A DNA stretch of 64,000 nt from positions 1 through 64,000 of the forward strand of contig CAJOIV010000010.1 of NCBI GenBank assembly GCA_905234665.1, given 5' to 3'. The stretch's first letter is position 1. The number at the start of each line of letters is the position of its first letter. The DNA comes from an uncultured Bacteroidales bacterium (GTDB taxonomy: Bacteria; Bacteroidota; Bacteroidia; Bacteroidales; P3). A model generated the notes under the pieces. It ran no database searches. It was not told the DNA's origin and worked only from the letters and a program-made list of their open reading frames with translations. Position numbers and translations under genes: made by a program. Of this stretch, positions 52,368 through 61,441 are shown piece after piece.

Positions 52368-53348
52368 GTGAATACGGCGCTGTTGGAATTTTACTGGAGC
52401 GTAGGGCGTGACCTCGTCGCTCTTAAGGCCGAAGAGCGTTGGGGCAGTGGAATAGTGAAGCAATTCGCCTTGGATATGCGGAATGCTTTCCCCGATGCAA
52501 AAGGCTTCTCTGACACCAACGTGAAATATATGAAACGCTGGTATTTGTTCTATTATGAGCGAGTTATAAAAGGCCAGCAACTTGCTGGCCAAATTGACGT
52601 GACAGAAAAAAGTCACCAACTTGGTGACATTTTAGAAATGCCTGATATATTTGGCCTTGTTCCATGGAAGCAACACATCCTAATCATATCCAAGACCCAA
52701 ACCCTTGAGGAAGCTCTCTTTTATATTGACAAGGTAGTGACAGAGGGGTGGAGCCGCAGCTGGCTCGAAGACCAGGTTGCCCACAATCTATACCGAAACC
52801 AAGGTGCCGCCATCACAAACTTCGACAACACACTGCCCGCCCCACAAAGTCAGCTGGCCAAAGAGTTGCTGAAGAACGAGTATAATTTGAGTTTCATCAC
52901 CGCCGAAAGCGTTAAACGTGAAAGAGACTTGGAAGAAGACCTCGTCGCTAATGTCACTCGCTTCCTTCTGGAGCTTGGAAAAGGGTTCGCTTATGTAGGC
53001 CGACAGATGGAGTTGCGAATGGATGAAGAAACAGCATTCTTCCCTGATCTGGTGTTCTATCACATACCTCAGAAACGTTATGTAATCATCGAACTGAAAG
53101 CCGTAAAGTTTGAGCCTGAGTTTGCAGGTAAACTTAATTTCTACGTTACTGCTGCCGACAAACTCCTCAGAGGTGACGGAGACAACGAATCTGTGGGTCT
53201 GATTATCTGCAAGACGGCTAAGAGAACAATAGTGGAATGGTCGTTGCAAGACATAGCCAAGCCGTTAGGCGTAGCCACCTACCAGTTGGAAGAGGTGGTG
53301 GCCCGCACCGTCAGGGAACTGGAACAACGAAAGAAGGAGAAAAAATAA
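52368..53348 (+). CDS. DUF1016/YhcG-family PDDEXK nuclease, N-terminus separated by nonsense codon at 52308-52310
   Basis: LLEFYWSVGRDLVALKAEERWGSGIVKQFALDMRNAFPDAKGFSDTNVKYMKRWY; AFFPDLVFYHIPQKRYVIIELKAVKFEPEFAGKLNFYVTAADKLLR; in-frame upstream MTDKPHFVFRDGMTADSNYV*WIADIKGRYRSSQIKAAIKV. Confidence 0.85.
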   Translation: MNTALLEFYWSVGRDLVALKAEERWGSGIVKQFALDMRNAFPDAKGFSDTNVKYMKRWYLFYYERVIKGQQLAGQIDVTEKSHQLGDILEMPDIFGLVPWKQHILIISKTQTLEEALFYIDKVVTEGWSRSWLEDQVAHNLYRNQGAAITNFDNTLPAPQSQLAKELLKNEYNLSFITAESVKRERDLEEDLVANVTRFLLELGKGFAYVGRQMELRMDEETAFFPDLVFYHIPQKRYVIIELKAVKFEPEFAGKLNFYVTAADKLLRGDGDNESVGLIICKTAKRTIVEWSLQDIAKPLGVATYQLEEVVARTVRELEQRKKEKK

Positions 53349-53679: not shown

Positions 53680-56600
53680 ATGAGTGAAAACGCCTTGGAG
53701 AAGAATATAGAAATAAGGTTTATAAAGCAACTTGAACAAGAGCAAAAATACACCTATCGTCCTGATATTCATGATAGAGATGCTCTTGAGAAGAACTTTC
53801 GGCAGAAGTTCGAGGCTCTGAATCGCGTCCATTTGTCCGACAAAGAATTTGAACGTTTGCTGGATGAAATTGTTGATTCCGATGTCTTTGTTGCCTCAAA
53901 GCGACTACGCGAACGTAATACTTTCTTCCGCGAAGACGGAACACCGCTTCAATATACACTCGTCAATATAAAAGATTGGTGCAAAAATGAGTATGAGGTC
54001 GTTCATCAGTTACGTATTAACACCCGAAACAGTCACCATAGGTACGATGTCATTCTGCTAATCAATGGATTGCCTCTGGTTCAGGTGGAATTGAAAAATT
54101 ATGAGGTCAGCCCACGACGGGCAATGCAACAAATTGTTGACTACAAGAATGACTCAGGCAATGGCTATAACAATACATTGCTTTGTTTCATGCAACTGTT
54201 CATTGTTAGCAATCAAACCAATACATATTTCTTTGCCAATAACAATAATCGCCATTTTAACTTCAACGCCGACGAACATTACCTACCAGTCTACAAATGG
54301 GCCGATGAAAACAACCAAAAAATACTGAATCTTGATGCCTTTAGAGAGACTTTTTTGCCGAAGTGCAAACTTGGCGAGATGATAAGCCGTTACATGGTAT
54401 TGGTATCAAGTGAGCAGAAAATACTTGTCATGCGTCCATATCAGATTTACGCGGTAAAGGCTATTATCAAGAGCATCGAGGAGAATCGTGGCAACGGATA
54501 CATTTGGCACACTACAGGTAGCGGAAAAACTCTCACTTCTTTCAAGGCCTCAACCATATTGAAAGACAACCCAGATATTGAAAAGTGCCTGTTTGTTGTA
54601 GACAGAAAAGACCTTGACAGACAAACTCGAGAGGAGTTCAATCGCTTTCAAGAGAAATGTGTGGAGGAGAATACAAATACAGATTCTCTTGTTAGGCGTA
54701 TGCTTTCCGATGATTACACCGACAAGGTTATTGTCACCACCATACAGAAACTCGGTGTGGCCCTTGATCAACAGAATAAACGCAAGTATCTCGATTTCTT
54801 GAAGCCGCTACGCGACAAGAAGATGGTTTTCATTTTCGACGAGTGCCACCGTTCTCAGTTCGGAGACAATCATAAAGCCATAAAAGAGTTCTTCCCCAAT
54901 GCCCAGTTGTTCGGATTTACAGGGACTCCTATTTTTGAAGAAAACGCTACTTATACGCAAATCACTGGTGAAGAGGCGCAATATAAGACAACAAAAGACA
55001 TTTTCCCCAACGAGTTGCACACTTACACTATTACTAATGCCATTGAAGATGAAAACGTGCTCCGTTTCCATATCGAGTACTTCCAAACCGAACAAGATTC
55101 TGCAGATATTAGCGAGCGTCAGCGCAAGCAGGGCATAATAGACTCAATCCTTCAGAAACAAAATGCGGATGGCCCAATAAAACATGATATTGCCACAAAT
55201 CACCGTCGTTTCAATGCACTTTTTGCTACCGATTCCATCAATGATGCAATAGAATACTACAAGCTGTTCAAGGCGACACAAAAGAAACTGATAACAGAAG
55301 ATAGTACCTTCGAGCCATTGAATATCACATGTATATTCTCTCCTCCGGCAGAGGGAAACAAGGATACAGAGCAGTTGCAAGCAGACCTGCCTCGCGAACA
55401 GTACGATAATAGCAAGGAGCCCGACAAAAAGAAGAAAGCGCTTCAATCTATTATTGATGATTATAACAAGCAGTATGATACGAACCATAACATTAACGAG
55501 TTTGATGCCTACTATCAGGATGTTCAAAAGCGTATCAAAGACCAGCAATACACCAACAAGGATTATCCGCATAAAAACAAAATTGACATCGCCATAGTGG
55601 TCGATATGCTACTGACGGGATTTGATTCCAAGTACCTCAACACACTATATGTAGACAAACGTTTGCAGTACCATGGGTTGATTCAAGCATTCTCTCGCAC
55701 CAACCGAATATTGAATGATACAAAACCGTATGGCAACATCTTGGATTTCCGCGGCCAACAGAATGCCGTTGACGAGGCTATTGCCTTGTTCTCTGGAGAA
55801 CGGAAAGAACAAGCTCGGCAGATATGGCTCGTAGAACCTGCCGAGAAAGTAATTGAGAAGTATAAAGGGGCTATTGACAATTTACGCGATTTCATGCGCG
55901 GTCAAGATGTTGATTTTAGTGCTGATGGCGTCAATAATCTTCAAGGTGATGCTGCACGTATAGAGTTTGTCAATCTGTTTAAAGAAGTTCAACGCTGCAA
56001 AACAAAGATTGATCAGTATACCGACATCCCGGCCGATGAACATGTCGCCATTGATAATATGCTCTCGCCGGTCGAGTTGCAGGCATTCCGTAGCGCATAT
56101 CTTGAAACTGCTCGTGATATGCGCAGTGTGCGTGAGCAGAATCCCGAGACCATCTCTCCTGAGGTACAAGACCTTGACTTCGAGTTTGTGTTGTTCGCTT
56201 CTTCTATTATCGATTACGACTATATCATGGAGCTTATTACCCGTTATGTCGGTGAACCCAAGAAAATGAAGATGACAAAGGAACAGTTGATTGGACTGAT
56301 TTCTTCAAGTGCCAATCTTCTTGACGAGCGGGATGATATCATTGCATACCTTGATAGTCTCGATGGTGTTAACGGCCGATCAGTGGAAGAGGTAAAAGCA
56401 GGTTATGAGTTGTTTAAGACTGAGAAATATGCCAAAGAGTTAATGTTGGTTTCGGAACGGCATCATATTGGCATCTCTTCTTTGCAGTATTTTGTAAATG
56501 ATATTGTTGAGCGTAGTATATTTGATGGAGAGAAACTAAACGATTTGCTTGAGCCTCTCAATCTCGGGTGGCGATCCCGTACCGAGGCTGAAAAGAATTT

Positions 56601-56685
56601 AATGAAAGACCTTGTCCCATTGCTAAATCGTATGGCTGGGGGGAAGGAAATATCTGGATTGTCCGCTTATGAAAAAGAAAATTAG
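53680..56685 (+). CDS. hsdR: type I restriction enzyme, R subunit
   Basis: GLPLVQVELKNYEVSPRRAMQQI nuclease; GNGYIWHTTGSGKTLTSFKAS; FIFDECHRSQFG; FGFTGTPIFEEN; DMLLTGFDSKYLNTLYVDKRL. Confidence 0.97.
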   Translation: MSENALEKNIEIRFIKQLEQEQKYTYRPDIHDRDALEKNFRQKFEALNRVHLSDKEFERLLDEIVDSDVFVASKRLRERNTFFREDGTPLQYTLVNIKDWCKNEYEVVHQLRINTRNSHHRYDVILLINGLPLVQVELKNYEVSPRRAMQQIVDYKNDSGNGYNNTLLCFMQLFIVSNQTNTYFFANNNNRHFNFNADEHYLPVYKWADENNQKILNLDAFRETFLPKCKLGEMISRYMVLVSSEQKILVMRPYQIYAVKAIIKSIEENRGNGYIWHTTGSGKTLTSFKASTILKDNPDIEKCLFVVDRKDLDRQTREEFNRFQEKCVEENTNTDSLVRRMLSDDYTDKVIVTTIQKLGVALDQQNKRKYLDFLKPLRDKKMVFIFDECHRSQFGDNHKAIKEFFPNAQLFGFTGTPIFEENATYTQITGEEAQYKTTKDIFPNELHTYTITNAIEDENVLRFHIEYFQTEQDSADISERQRKQGIIDSILQKQNADGPIKHDIATNHRRFNALFATDSINDAIEYYKLFKATQKKLITEDSTFEPLNITCIFSPPAEGNKDTEQLQADLPREQYDNSKEPDKKKKALQSIIDDYNKQYDTNHNINEFDAYYQDVQKRIKDQQYTNKDYPHKNKIDIAIVVDMLLTGFDSKYLNTLYVDKRLQYHGLIQAFSRTNRILNDTKPYGNILDFRGQQNAVDEAIALFSGERKEQARQIWLVEPAEKVIEKYKGAIDNLRDFMRGQDVDFSADGVNNLQGDAARIEFVNLFKEVQRCKTKIDQYTDIPADEHVAIDNMLSPVELQAFRSAYLETARDMRSVREQNPETISPEVQDLDFEFVLFASSIIDYDYIMELITRYVGEPKKMKMTKEQLIGLISSSANLLDERDDIIAYLDSLDGVNGRSVEEVKAGYELFKTEKYAKELMLVSERHHIGISSLQYFVNDIVERSIFDGEKLNDLLEPLNLGWRSRTEAEKNLMKDLVPLLNRMAGGKEISGLSAYEKEN

Positions 56686-56694
56686 TCTCAGATA

Positions 56695-57963
56695 ATGGAA
56701 ACATCAGACATTATTCCAACACTTAGATTTCCTAAGTCAAGAGGAAGGAACAGATGGGTTGTTTCTACAATCGGTGAGATTTTCGAGTCTTTACCGACAG
56801 CTTCATATTCTCGGGCATATCTATCAGAAGAAGGAAGTATCGGCTATATCCATTATGGAGATATCCACACAAAATACAATTCATATATTGACCTGTCTAA
56901 GGTAAAGTTACCGTCTATTCCTGTGGAGTTGAAAAAGAAATATCGTTTTGTAAAAGATGGCGATTTGGTTTTGACCGATGCTTCTGAAGACTATTTGGGT
57001 ATTGGGAAAGCCGTAGAAATAATAAACGTTGGTAAACACAAAACAATCTGCGGATTGCATACTATTCTGCTGAGAGAAACACAGCATGTGTTTTGTGTTG
57101 GTTTCAAAACTTATTTATTTCAAAGTCCAACGGTAAAAAAACAAATTGAAAGATTGTCTGTTGGGTTTAAGGTCAATAGTATTTCTTACAATGCAATAAA
57201 AGACATTCGAATTGCTTACCCAGATAACAAGCAGGAACAGGAGAAAATATCAAAATGCTTGCAGACTATAGAAACAGAGATACGGGCAAATGTGGTTGCA
57301 TTGAACAAGATGCTTCAACATAAAAAAGCGCTTCTCCAAAACCTATTTCCACAAAGAGGGGAAGTCACACCTAATAAATGTTTTAATGACTCCGACAAAA
57401 AAGAAGGGTGGAGAATTAAGTTTGGTGGAGATCTGTTTTATCCTGTGTCAAACAAAAATCATCAATTCGAATTACCAATACTGGCCATTTCCCAAGGAAA
57501 AGGAGCCATACCTCGAGATGAGATTAATTACCGTGTTTCTGTTAGTGAAAAAAGTATTGAAGGATATAAAGTAGTTGAGGTTGGGGATTTTATAATTAGT
57601 TTACGATCTTTCCAAGGTGGTATTGAATATTCCAGATACAGAGGTTTATGTAGTCCCGCATATGTTGTATTGCGAAAGAAAACAGACAATCTTTATGATG
57701 ATTTTTACAGACACTATTTTAAGACCACCCGTTTCATTCAAGACTTGACGCGTAATCTTGAAGGCATTCGCGACGGAAAGATGATTAGCTTTCAGCAGTT
57801 CTCAGAAATTAGAATCCCTTATCCTTCCTATGAAGAGCAACAGAAGATTGCAGATATTTTAACTAGTTTAGACAAAATTATTGAACTAAAAAAAAGAAAG
57901 ATTGAGCTATTAAAGTTGCAAGAAAAAGGCTTATTACAGCAACTTTTCCCCCAAAGCGAATGA
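56695..57963 (+). CDS. hsdS: type I restriction enzyme, S subunit (two TRDs)
   Basis: Two half-repeats each ending in IAYPDNKQEQEKISKCLQTIETEI / IPYPSYEEQQKIADILTSLDKIIELKKRKIELLKLQEKGLLQQLFPQ. Confidence 0.94.
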   Translation: METSDIIPTLRFPKSRGRNRWVVSTIGEIFESLPTASYSRAYLSEEGSIGYIHYGDIHTKYNSYIDLSKVKLPSIPVELKKKYRFVKDGDLVLTDASEDYLGIGKAVEIINVGKHKTICGLHTILLRETQHVFCVGFKTYLFQSPTVKKQIERLSVGFKVNSISYNAIKDIRIAYPDNKQEQEKISKCLQTIETEIRANVVALNKMLQHKKALLQNLFPQRGEVTPNKCFNDSDKKEGWRIKFGGDLFYPVSNKNHQFELPILAISQGKGAIPRDEINYRVSVSEKSIEGYKVVEVGDFIISLRSFQGGIEYSRYRGLCSPAYVVLRKKTDNLYDDFYRHYFKTTRFIQDLTRNLEGIRDGKMISFQQFSEIRIPYPSYEEQQKIADILTSLDKIIELKKRKIELLKLQEKGLLQQLFPQSE

Positions 57964-57964
57964 T

Positions 57965-59050
57965 ATGAACGAATTAAACAATATAGCCAAAGAATTAGCA
58001 GAATCCCCATATACAATATCATTGATATATGCATTTAATGCCACTGGTAAAACTCAATTATCGGTGGCTTACAAGGATGTGACCAAAGAGAATAATGGAG
58101 GGGAACATGCTGGGGTTTATTATAATGCATATAGCGAAGATCTATTTCAATGGGATAATGATGAAGAAGACAATAATCGGAATGTGAATTTGAGAGTTAT
58201 TCCGAGTAGTTTAAATAATTTCCACTCATATCTTTTGGAAGATCCCAATCGCATACAAGAAAAACTCAATAAATACTATCCTAACTATACATTTAGACTC
58301 AATTCCTTTGGGAGAACAGAGTCAGATTCGGAAAAGGGGATTTATTCCATTTCATTCTTCTCAAAAGAAGATGAGGAGATGTTGTCTCCGATTAAAATAT
58401 CAAGAGGGGAAGAACGAATCTTTATTTGGTGCTTTTTTCTGGCATTGTTCGAATACGATGATTGGGTCGGCAAACAGAGTGCCCATATTTTTATAGATGA
58501 CCCTATATCAAGTCTAGATGACCATAATTTATATATAACCACCGATAGCATTTGCGAGTTAATTGATAATAATTATAAGCAAAAGAAAATTTTTATTACA
58601 ACACACCATATTGGTATGTTTTCCGTATTGTCGGATTGGTTGACAAAGGGTGATAAAAGTAAGAGATTTGAGAAATTAACAAGACTATGTATTCTAGAAC
58701 GTACAGATGCGGGCATTCAACTCAAAGAATGCAACGAAGGGGTATTCTTGTTCCATCTTCATCTCTTAAAGACATTGCAGGATTCTGTAAATTCAGAGAT
58801 ATATTCCTATCACTTTGTTCTTTTGCGTCAATTGTTGGAAAACATCTCATCATTCCTCGGTAGCGGACGAACATCATATGTTCTCGATAGGATAGGCATA
58901 AGTGATAGCAATAATATTATGAACCAGATCAATTCGTTATCGCATAAGGATGCCTATCAATTACTGTATTACAAACCTTCATCTAGCGAAACCAAATTGA
59001 TGAAAGATGTTATTGCAGCAATACAAAATAAATACCAATTTCATATTTAA
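57965..59050 (+). CDS. PrrC/RloC-like ABC-ATPase, putative anticodon nuclease
   Basis: Walker A-like IYAFNATGKTQL; ISRGEERIFIWCFFLAL; IFIDDPISSLDDHN; IFITTHHIGMF; C-term LLRQLLENI...INSLSH matching the R-xxx-E ... H triad pattern; between hsdS and hsdM. Confidence 0.75.
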   Translation: MNELNNIAKELAESPYTISLIYAFNATGKTQLSVAYKDVTKENNGGEHAGVYYNAYSEDLFQWDNDEEDNNRNVNLRVIPSSLNNFHSYLLEDPNRIQEKLNKYYPNYTFRLNSFGRTESDSEKGIYSISFFSKEDEEMLSPIKISRGEERIFIWCFFLALFEYDDWVGKQSAHIFIDDPISSLDDHNLYITTDSICELIDNNYKQKKIFITTHHIGMFSVLSDWLTKGDKSKRFEKLTRLCILERTDAGIQLKECNEGVFLFHLHLLKTLQDSVNSEIYSYHFVLLRQLLENISSFLGSGRTSYVLDRIGISDSNNIMNQINSLSHKDAYQLLYYKPSSSETKLMKDVIAAIQNKYQFHI

Positions 59051-59052
59051 TC

Positions 59053-60657
59053 ATGGCAACCGGTAAACATCAAGAGTTAGGTAAAGCATTATGGGGTGTC
59101 GCAAATAGTTTGAGGGGCTCTATGATGGCAGACGACTTTCGTGATTATATGTTATCTCTTTTATTTCTACGATACCTATCGGATAATTACGAAAAGGCAG
59201 CCCAAAAAGAGCTGGGGAAAGAGTATCCTCAGTCTGTAAAAAAGGGGACAACTCCTTTGCAAGCATGGTATAATAAAAACAAAAAGGACATTGAGCTTTT
59301 TGAAAGCCAAATGAAGAAAAAAGTTCACTATGTCATAAAGCCCAAATATCTATGGAGTAACATCGTTGAACTATCTAGAACACAGGACGAACAACTTCTA
59401 AAGACTCTTGAGCGAGGTTTTAAATATATTGAAGAAGAATCATTTGAGAGCACATTTAAAGGCTTGTTTTCTGAGGTCAATTTGAGCTCTGACAAACTGG
59501 GGAAAGATTATTCGGAAAGGAATATAGTAATTTCTAAAGTTATAAAGACTATCTCCGAAAAGATTAAAGAGTTGTCCGCGATAGACGATGACCTCGGTTC
59601 AGCTTATGAATATCTGATTGCTGAGTTCGCTGCTGGTTCTGGTCAAAAGGCCGGAGAATTTTATACGCCGCAAATGGTTTCATCCATTCTATCCCGTATT
59701 GCGACACTTGATTGTCAAGATCCAAAGAATGGCAAAAAGACTAAAATTAAAAAAGTACTCGATTTTGCTTGCGGTTCAGGTTCGTTGCTACTGAATGTTC
59801 GCCGAGAGATGGGAGAGACTGGCATAGGCAAGATATACGGACAGGAAAAGAACATAACCACGTACAACCTTGCTCGGATGAATATGCTCCTACACGGAGT
59901 AAAAGACACCGAGTTTGAGATTCATCATGGGGATACTCTTGCAAATGATTGGGATATTCTAAATGAACCAAATCCAGCTAAGAAGATGGAGTTTGATGCC
60001 ATTGTAGCCAATCCACCATTCAGCCTTCGTTGGGATCCTTCTGAAGAAACGGCGAAAGATTTCCGCTTTAGTCGATATGGTATTGCGCCCAAGTCTGCAG
60101 CTGATTTTGCTTTTCTACTTCACGGATTGCATTATTTGAGTGACGATGGGACGATGGCAATCATCCTGCCACATGGCGTATTGTTCCGTGGTGGACGAGA
60201 AGAACCCATTCGCAAAAAGCTATTGGAAGACGACTATATTGATGCCATTATTGGATTGCCATCCAATCTCTTTTATTCTACAGGTATTCCTGTCTGTATT
60301 GTTGTACTGAAGAAATGCCGTAAAACCAAAAACATCTTGTTTATCAATGCTGCCGAGTATTTTACTCCCGCAAAACGACAGAATGTTCTTGAAGAGACAC
60401 ATGTAGAAAGAATTGTTGAAACCTACAAATCTCGTCAGGAAATACCTCGTTTCTCTAGAAAAGTCGAGCCGGAAGAAATCGTAGAGAATGGATACAATCT
60501 GAACATTGTCAGATATGTCAGCCTTGCCCAAGAAGAAGTCCCGATAGACTTGAATGACGTTCACAAACAACTCGTGGAAATAGAAAAAGAAATTGCTGCC
60601 GCCAAAGCCGAACACAACAAATACCTCCGCGAACTTGGATTGCCCGAACTGCCATAA
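59053..60657 (+). CDS. hsdM: type I restriction-modification system, M subunit
   Basis: AGEFYTPQMVSSILSRIA; VLDFACGSGSLLLNVRREMG; FDAIVANPPFSLRWDP. Confidence 0.97.
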   Translation: MATGKHQELGKALWGVANSLRGSMMADDFRDYMLSLLFLRYLSDNYEKAAQKELGKEYPQSVKKGTTPLQAWYNKNKKDIELFESQMKKKVHYVIKPKYLWSNIVELSRTQDEQLLKTLERGFKYIEEESFESTFKGLFSEVNLSSDKLGKDYSERNIVISKVIKTISEKIKELSAIDDDLGSAYEYLIAEFAAGSGQKAGEFYTPQMVSSILSRIATLDCQDPKNGKKTKIKKVLDFACGSGSLLLNVRREMGETGIGKIYGQEKNITTYNLARMNMLLHGVKDTEFEIHHGDTLANDWDILNEPNPAKKMEFDAIVANPPFSLRWDPSEETAKDFRFSRYGIAPKSAADFAFLLHGLHYLSDDGTMAIILPHGVLFRGGREEPIRKKLLEDDYIDAIIGLPSNLFYSTGIPVCIVVLKKCRKTKNILFINAAEYFTPAKRQNVLEETHVERIVETYKSRQEIPRFSRKVEPEEIVENGYNLNIVRYVSLAQEEVPIDLNDVHKQLVEIEKEIAAAKAEHNKYLRELGLPELP

Positions 60658-60774: not shown

Positions 60775-60945
60775 ATGGACAACAACCTCAAACAGAAGAT
60801 AGACGCGCTGGTGGCGGAGATTTCTACCATCAACGATTTGACCCACAAGGTTTCCATTTTGGAGTACATGGAACAGCAGTCTTCCTACATGCTCTGGCAA
60901 CTGCAGGACGAGATTCATATCGACTATGACTCGCAGAATGTATAG
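60775..60945 (+). CDS. small conserved-looking 56-aa protein
   Basis: Below track cutoff; MDNNLKQKIDALVAEISTINDLTHKVSILEYMEQQSSYMLWQLQDEIHIDYDSQNV; promoter TAtcTTTG at 60731; overlaps lptE-like start. Confidence 0.6.
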   Translation: MDNNLKQKIDALVAEISTINDLTHKVSILEYMEQQSSYMLWQLQDEIHIDYDSQNV

Positions 60946-61441
60946 GGCGCTGGCGTTGATGCTGGCGTTGACACTAACGCTGGCCTCCTGTTCGGGGGGC
61001 TACTCCTTCACGGGAGCCTCTATCCCGGCGGAGGCGAAGACGCTCTCGCTGAAACAGTTCCCCAACTACGCCTCGACGGTGAACCCCACGCTCAGCCAGA
61101 CACTCTACGACAAGCTGCAGCAGATGTTCTCGTCGCAGACGCCGCTGAACATCACCTCCGCTGACGGCGACCTCCAGATTACCGGCGAGATTACCGACTA
61201 CTCCACCCGCGCCTCGTCACTCTCCAGCGACGACAATGTGGCCACCAACCGCTTCACTATCACCGTCAAGGTGAAGTTCACCAACCGCTTCGACCCCAAG
61301 GCCGACTTCGAGCAGAGCTTCTCGCGCTTCAAGGACTATGACGCATCGCGCGACTTTTCGGCGGTGGAAGCTTCGCTGGTGAGTGAAATCGTCAACGAAC
61401 TATGCGAAGACATCTTCAACAAGTCCGTGGTGAACTGGTAA
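60926..61441 (+). CDS. lptE: LptE-family LPS-assembly lipoprotein
   Basis: LALTLTLASCSGGYSFTGASIPAEAKTLSLKQFPNYASTVNPTLSQTLYDKLQQMF; VTVKVKFTNRFDPKADFEQSFSRF. Confidence 0.85.
   Translation: MTRRMYRALALMLALTLTLASCSGGYSFTGASIPAEAKTLSLKQFPNYASTVNPTLSQTLYDKLQQMFSSQTPLNITSADGDLQITGEITDYSTRASSLSSDDNVATNRFTITVKVKFTNRFDPKADFEQSFSRFKDYDASRDFSAVEASLVSEIVNELCEDIFNKSVVNW

Follow-up and report, generated by a model that had tools for sequence, protein, structure and literature searches.

A PrrC homologue, predicted to be an anticodon nuclease, within a type IC restriction-modification operon of an uncultured Bacteroidales bacterium

The PrrC protein of E. coli is a "suicide" enzyme that cuts tRNA, and it is thought to become active once phages have put the restriction system of the cell out of action. 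In the stretch of DNA analyzed here, a window of 64,000 nucleotides from an uncultured Bacteroidales bacterium, a reading frame lies between the hsdS and hsdM genes of a restriction-modification operon, and the question arises whether this too encodes a latent anticodon nuclease and, if so, which tRNA it would cut. An initial annotation regarded the product as a PrrC-like candidate with ABC motifs. It had placed the frame correctly at 57965-59050, with 361 aa and a gene order of hsdR-hsdS-X-hsdM, and its candidate is borne out by the match to the PADLOC PrrC model and by motif columns that are invariant in 105 homologues (Table 1).

The three partner genes are all complete as judged by Pfam, with two target-recognition stretches in HsdS, and the four genes are tightly packed. 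There are 9 nt between hsdR and the start of hsdS, the ATG of prrC lies 1 nt past the hsdS stop in the sequence, and 2 nt separate the end of prrC from the start of hsdM. The sole PDB relative of HsdR at E<=1e-10 is the HsdR of EcoR124 (about 1e-119), and HsdM matches EcoR124 M at 2.4e-87 compared with 3.8e-13 for EcoKI M. The locus is an intact EcoR124-like (type IC) operon with the order R-S-prrC-M. EcoR124 is a type IC enzyme, the same type as EcoprrI (PMC3874165, PMC3014915). Immediately 5' of hsdR on the forward strand (52368-53348) there is a gene for a DUF1016/YhcG-type PD-(D/E)XK nuclease (PADLOC candidate PDC-S02, E = 2.2e-112). We rejected it as a fixed partner of prrC, as such a gene is found near only seven of about 150 prrC loci, five of them in the group of the window described below, and it is probably an independent defence gene.

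Table 1. Coordinates of the operon genes and of the conserved motifs in the PrrC homologue. Positions are those of the window.
Feature	Position	Strand	Description
hsdR	53680-56685	+	Type I restriction subunit, 1001 aa, EcoR124 (type IC)-like, intact; Pfam HSDR_N, SWI2_SNF2, T1R_D3-like, EcoR124_C
hsdS	56695-57963	+	Specificity subunit, 422 aa; Pfam PF01420 Methylase_S 1.1e-20, two stretches; PADLOC Specificity_I 3.4e-75
prrC	57965-59050	+	361 aa, predicted ABC-ATPase and anticodon-nuclease protein; PADLOC PrrC 2.3e-93; PF13166 3.6e-18
Walker A, AFNATGKT	58031-58054	+	Residues 23-30; N25, G28, K29, T30 invariant in 105 homologues
Conserved block past Walker A, YNAYSEDLFQWDND	58121-58162	+	Residues 53-66; N54, A55, E58, D59, L60, F61, W63, N65 invariant in 29 sequences
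ABC-signature-like, KISRGEE	58394-58414	+	Residues 144-150; K144, S146, E149 invariant in 105 homologues
Walker B / D-loop, HIFIDDPISSLDD	58484-58522	+	Residues 174-186; D178, D179, P180, D185 invariant in 105 homologues
Switch region, TTHH	58598-58609	+	Residues 212-215; H214 invariant in 105 homologues
LLRQLLE	58820-58840	+	Residues 286-292; predicted catalytic R288 and E292, in one predicted helix (282-298); invariant in 148/148 homologues
NSLSH	58931-58945	+	Residues 323-327; predicted catalytic H327, near the end of predicted helix 315-328; H in 147/148 homologues
hsdM	59053-60657	+	DNA adenine methyltransferase subunit, 534 aa, EcoR124 (type IC)-like; NCBIfam TIGR00497 hsdM, 375 bits (cut-off 242.75)

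The match to the PADLOC model PDLC02360 extends over residues 2-360 of the protein and positions 19-347 of the 372 in the model, so that homology runs the whole length and includes the C-domain. The protein also matches Pfam AAA_13 (PF13166) with 66.1 bits against a cut-off of 36, and is the only AAA_13 protein detected in its genome. By sequence comparison the reading frame is thus a full-length PrrC homologue. The set of ABC ATPase motifs is complete, comprising Walker A, signature, Walker B with the D-loop and the switch histidine, and there is no zinc-hook insert. The Walker A sequence had been described as degenerate. This is mistaken, since AFNATGKT fits [AG]x4GK[ST], the E. coli counterpart is AFNGTGKT, and the form is the norm in the family. 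The conserved block that follows may correspond to the "PrrC box" of the literature, its extent being approximate.

A sequence search of PDB chains with the protein gave no match, and a search with the family profile returned merely weak pieces of Rad50. The AlphaFold model of the whole protein has a pLDDT of 87.5, and its best structural matches are Rad50 and other ABC ATPases. Modeled alone the C-domain is all-helical (pLDDT 89.2); among PDB structures it comes closest to two HEPN proteins, 2hsb (E = 0.12) and 1wol (E = 0.51). A structural model had been proposed as a check on the assignment; it supports the head, which is closest to Rad50, but the HEPN matches of the C-domain are not significant.

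The putative active site lies in the C-domain. PrrC of E. coli strain B1 (396 aa) has R320, E324 and H356 with 32 residues from E to H, as published and as initially cited. At an overall identity of 32%, R288, E292 and H327 of the window protein align exactly with these three residues. The placing of LLRQLLE and NSLSH in the initial annotation was accurate, as was the identical RxxxE spacing with an E-to-H distance of 35 as against 32. The RxxxE...H spacing is weak evidence by itself, because it also turns up in about 5% of C-domains when these are shuffled, and homologues were therefore gathered mostly by patterns in the ATPase part. Those used for counting the triad were selected by ATPase-region patterns in most cases and by a whole-protein profile or tblastn in the rest, and never by the triad itself; the set of 148 includes near-duplicates and the window protein. 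Within it the triad is conserved in close and distant homologues alike. The initial annotation was to fall if homology to the C-domain of PrrC were lacking or if close homologues did not keep the triad, and it passes on both counts. The single member without the histidine is a gene cut by the end of its contig, so that H is present in every complete one. The weight of the triad comes from this conservation, taken together with the family match (E = 2.3e-93).

Is the gene order unusual? A scan of genome contigs with a single sequence found nothing; a profile scan afterwards gave 80 loci. A quick tree of 42 sequences with less than 62% identity divides PrrC into three groups, I (E. coli type), II (plasmid and prophage members) and III (containing the window protein). 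Group III forms a long, strongly supported branch, and group II is the least certain of the three, its support of 92 lying under the starred level. For the counts, membership was assigned by identity and operon order. In group I all loci are S-prrC-R, preceded by M if the contig extends far enough (M-S-C-R, C being prrC), and in groups II and III hsdM follows prrC in all loci with a readable neighbor (R-S-C-M). Considering all 148 loci, hsdS lies directly upstream of prrC in 139, and the next gene downstream is hsdM or hsdR in 145, most exceptions being at contig ends. One Halomonas MAG has a second prrC-like reading frame between prrC and hsdM, perhaps the result of a split or a duplication of the gene. 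In two group II loci, on IncC and IncA plasmids of Enterobacteriaceae, two extra genes lie between hsdR and hsdS, encoding a TrlF-like ATPase and an RNA-binding-domain/regulator protein.

The HsdR and HsdM proteins change with the order. Those of group I, where scored, are always nearer to E. coli prr, and those of groups II and III always nearer to the window's proteins than to E. coli prr. Operon order, PrrC group and HsdR/HsdM lineage agree without exception, and R-S-C-M is therefore the normal order for the group of the window. It is not unusual, being the fixed order there and also that of the published PrrC170 locus. PrrC thus keeps to the restriction enzyme of its own locus, which is what physical partners would do, but the same pattern would arise if the operon were simply inherited as a whole.

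Hosts of group III are found in Bacteroidota, Pseudomonadota, Campylobacterota, Spirochaetota, Verrucomicrobiota and Cyanobacteriota, with one Paenibacillus; several are MAGs. The window protein is a rather ordinary member of a known family, within a large and widespread branch. Its locus is patchy within the genus, as a search of about 90 congeneric genomes found one other PrrC at E < 1e-30, and that just 28% identical. This very divergent protein (428 aa, contig positions 1483-2769) is encoded between hsdS and hsdM and has an E-to-H spacing of 48. To the right of the window locus, lptE-DUF2723 is syntenic in four relatives, where hsdR and DUF1016 are not adjacent. This fits a mobile or replaceable defence locus. 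A second lptE-DUF2723 pair lies on a short contig of the window's assembly (C54, 4907-5392, compared with 60926-61438 in the window), with lptE 78% identical. Given this pair and an estimated contamination of 5.6%, the assembly is probably a mixed MAG.

We consider it very likely that the gene encodes a latent anticodon nuclease of the PrrC family that is silenced by its own type IC enzyme, freed when that enzyme is disabled, and directed most likely against tRNA-Lys(UUU). The ABC ATPase head, similar to that of Rad50, would take up residues ~1-255, and residues ~257-361 would fold into a helical ribonuclease of HEPN-like type whose active site contains R288, E292 and H327. PrrC would be made together with HsdR, HsdS and HsdM from the tightly packed operon, and the assembled type IC enzyme would keep it inactive; the choice of partner is made by analogy. 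Should a phage inhibitor or other perturbation disable the restriction enzyme, binding and hydrolysis of nucleotide in the head would free the nuclease to cut a tRNA, with tRNA-Lys(UUU) the most likely one, in its anticodon loop. Translation would stop, and the infection would abort, making PrrC a second line of defence. The sequences themselves show the homology, the conserved ATPase and catalytic residues, the place of prrC in the operon, and the co-variation of PrrC group with Hsd lineage and gene order. Silencing by the restriction enzyme, the trigger, the cleavage and the identity of the tRNA are the most likely course of events by analogy with two relatives, EcoprrI/PrrC (PMC3014915) and PrrC170 (PMC11555353). 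In the open-licence literature we found no assay of any group III member.

The first of these relatives (prrABCD) shares with the window an ABC ATPase joined to a C-terminal RNase, an aligned R/E/H triad and the same type of Walker A, and in both cases prrC is the next gene past hsdS in a type IC operon. It differs in its greater length (396 against 361 aa; the window protein was rightly said to be slightly shorter), in the order M-S-C-R rather than R-S-C-M, and in the limited identity and shorter E-H spacing given above; the window protein also has a divergent D287 segment and no Rx6H arginine. PrrC170 of Klebsiella quasipneumoniae belongs to an R-S-PrrC-M system, the order found in the window. 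The protein shares 35% identity with EcoPrrC and targets tRNA-Lys, and the system protects its host from T1 and T7 (PMC11555353). Between the window protein and a K. quasipneumoniae plasmid PrrC in R-S-PrrC-M order the identity is 33%, compared with at least 42% inside group III, so PrrC170, judged from this protein of the same order, is probably a member of group II.

The alternative that survives best concerns the target. The protein could be an active PrrC-type RNase that cuts one or more tRNA species other than tRNA-Lys, since the recognition segment is changed in group III. In E. coli PrrC a contact of D287 with the modified wobble base has been reported (PMC3014915). The corresponding column is D in 32 of 33 group I sequences and 16 of 22 in group II, and K or N in 69 of 92 in group III. 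The rest of the E. coli segment (KYGDSNKSFSY) is likewise replaced in group III, with two residues missing. From these substitutions a changed tRNA target in group III is possible. However, the alignment here could be off by one residue, and 73 of 93 group III sequences are acidic at the D287 column or the next one, which weakens the idea of a plain loss of D287. In the window protein itself Glu258 falls on that column, within the same uncertainty of one residue. Moreover, the two-residue deletion is common to groups II and III, and PrrC170, probably of group II, targets tRNA-Lys. On balance we regard another target as unlikely. The genome of the window has two identical tRNA-Lys(UUU) genes, read from individual loci, with the anticodon loop CTTTTAA, which is the loop sequence of E. 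coli tRNA-Lys as well. Their stem is G+C-richer than that in E. coli. A stable stem makes a tRNA less prone to cutting by the E. coli enzyme (PMC3014915), and the substrate preference of the window protein may accordingly be tuned in another way.

A second alternative is that the homologue has decayed or is not catalytic, and that it has become an ATPase with an accessory or regulatory part in the work of the restriction enzyme. The C-domains of PrrC and RloC have been placed in the HEPN ribonuclease superfamily, which has the motif Rx4-6H (PMC3710099). In groups I and II an arginine lies seven residues before the catalytic histidine (Rx6H) in 53 of 55 sequences. In group III there is an arginine at H-5 to H-7 in only 15 of 92, and in the window protein (58925-58945) H-6 and H-7 are Q and N. 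The absence of this arginine from the window protein, as from the majority of group III, might point to loss of activity. Yet the reading frame is intact, and R288, E292, H327, Walker A, Walker B and the switch histidine are invariant across phyla, which argues for purifying selection on catalysis. Furthermore, the two RloC-like proteins with a readable triad in our set also lack an arginine at H-7, yet RloC relies on R, E and H for its activity. We therefore think a non-catalytic role very unlikely. The invariant arginine of the window protein sits on the preceding helix, and an asparagine four residues before the histidine (N323) is invariant in group III (92/92). Group III might thus be a separate functional branch, employing R, E and H with the invariant Asn in place of the HEPN arginine, and reading either a tRNA other than the tRNA-Lys of E. 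coli PrrC or a wobble base that is modified in another way; we would give this suggestion little weight.

Finally, the protein could be a DNA-damage-responsive anticodon nuclease of the Rad50-like RloC type, lying in a restriction-modification locus by chance; RloC does share a Rad50-like ATPase head and the R-x3-E...H anticodon-nuclease triad (PMC2610378), and the structural matches are to Rad50, but this is scarcely credible, because the 361-aa protein has no CxxC zinc hook and no long coiled-coil insert, as RloC has at 658-897 aa, and restriction-modification linkage is seen for essentially all homologues of the window protein as against 8/73 for RloC (PMC2610378).

PrrC serves as the textbook example of a guard, keeping watch on a restriction system as a suicide enzyme. 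The branch to which the window protein belongs is common and always in the same type of operon, from Bacteroidota to Pseudomonadota, Campylobacterota, Cyanobacteriota and Spirochaetota. Group III therefore bears on how far guarding of a restriction system and a tRNA-Lys target are common to the whole family, and on whether such an enzyme can do without the Rx6H arginine.
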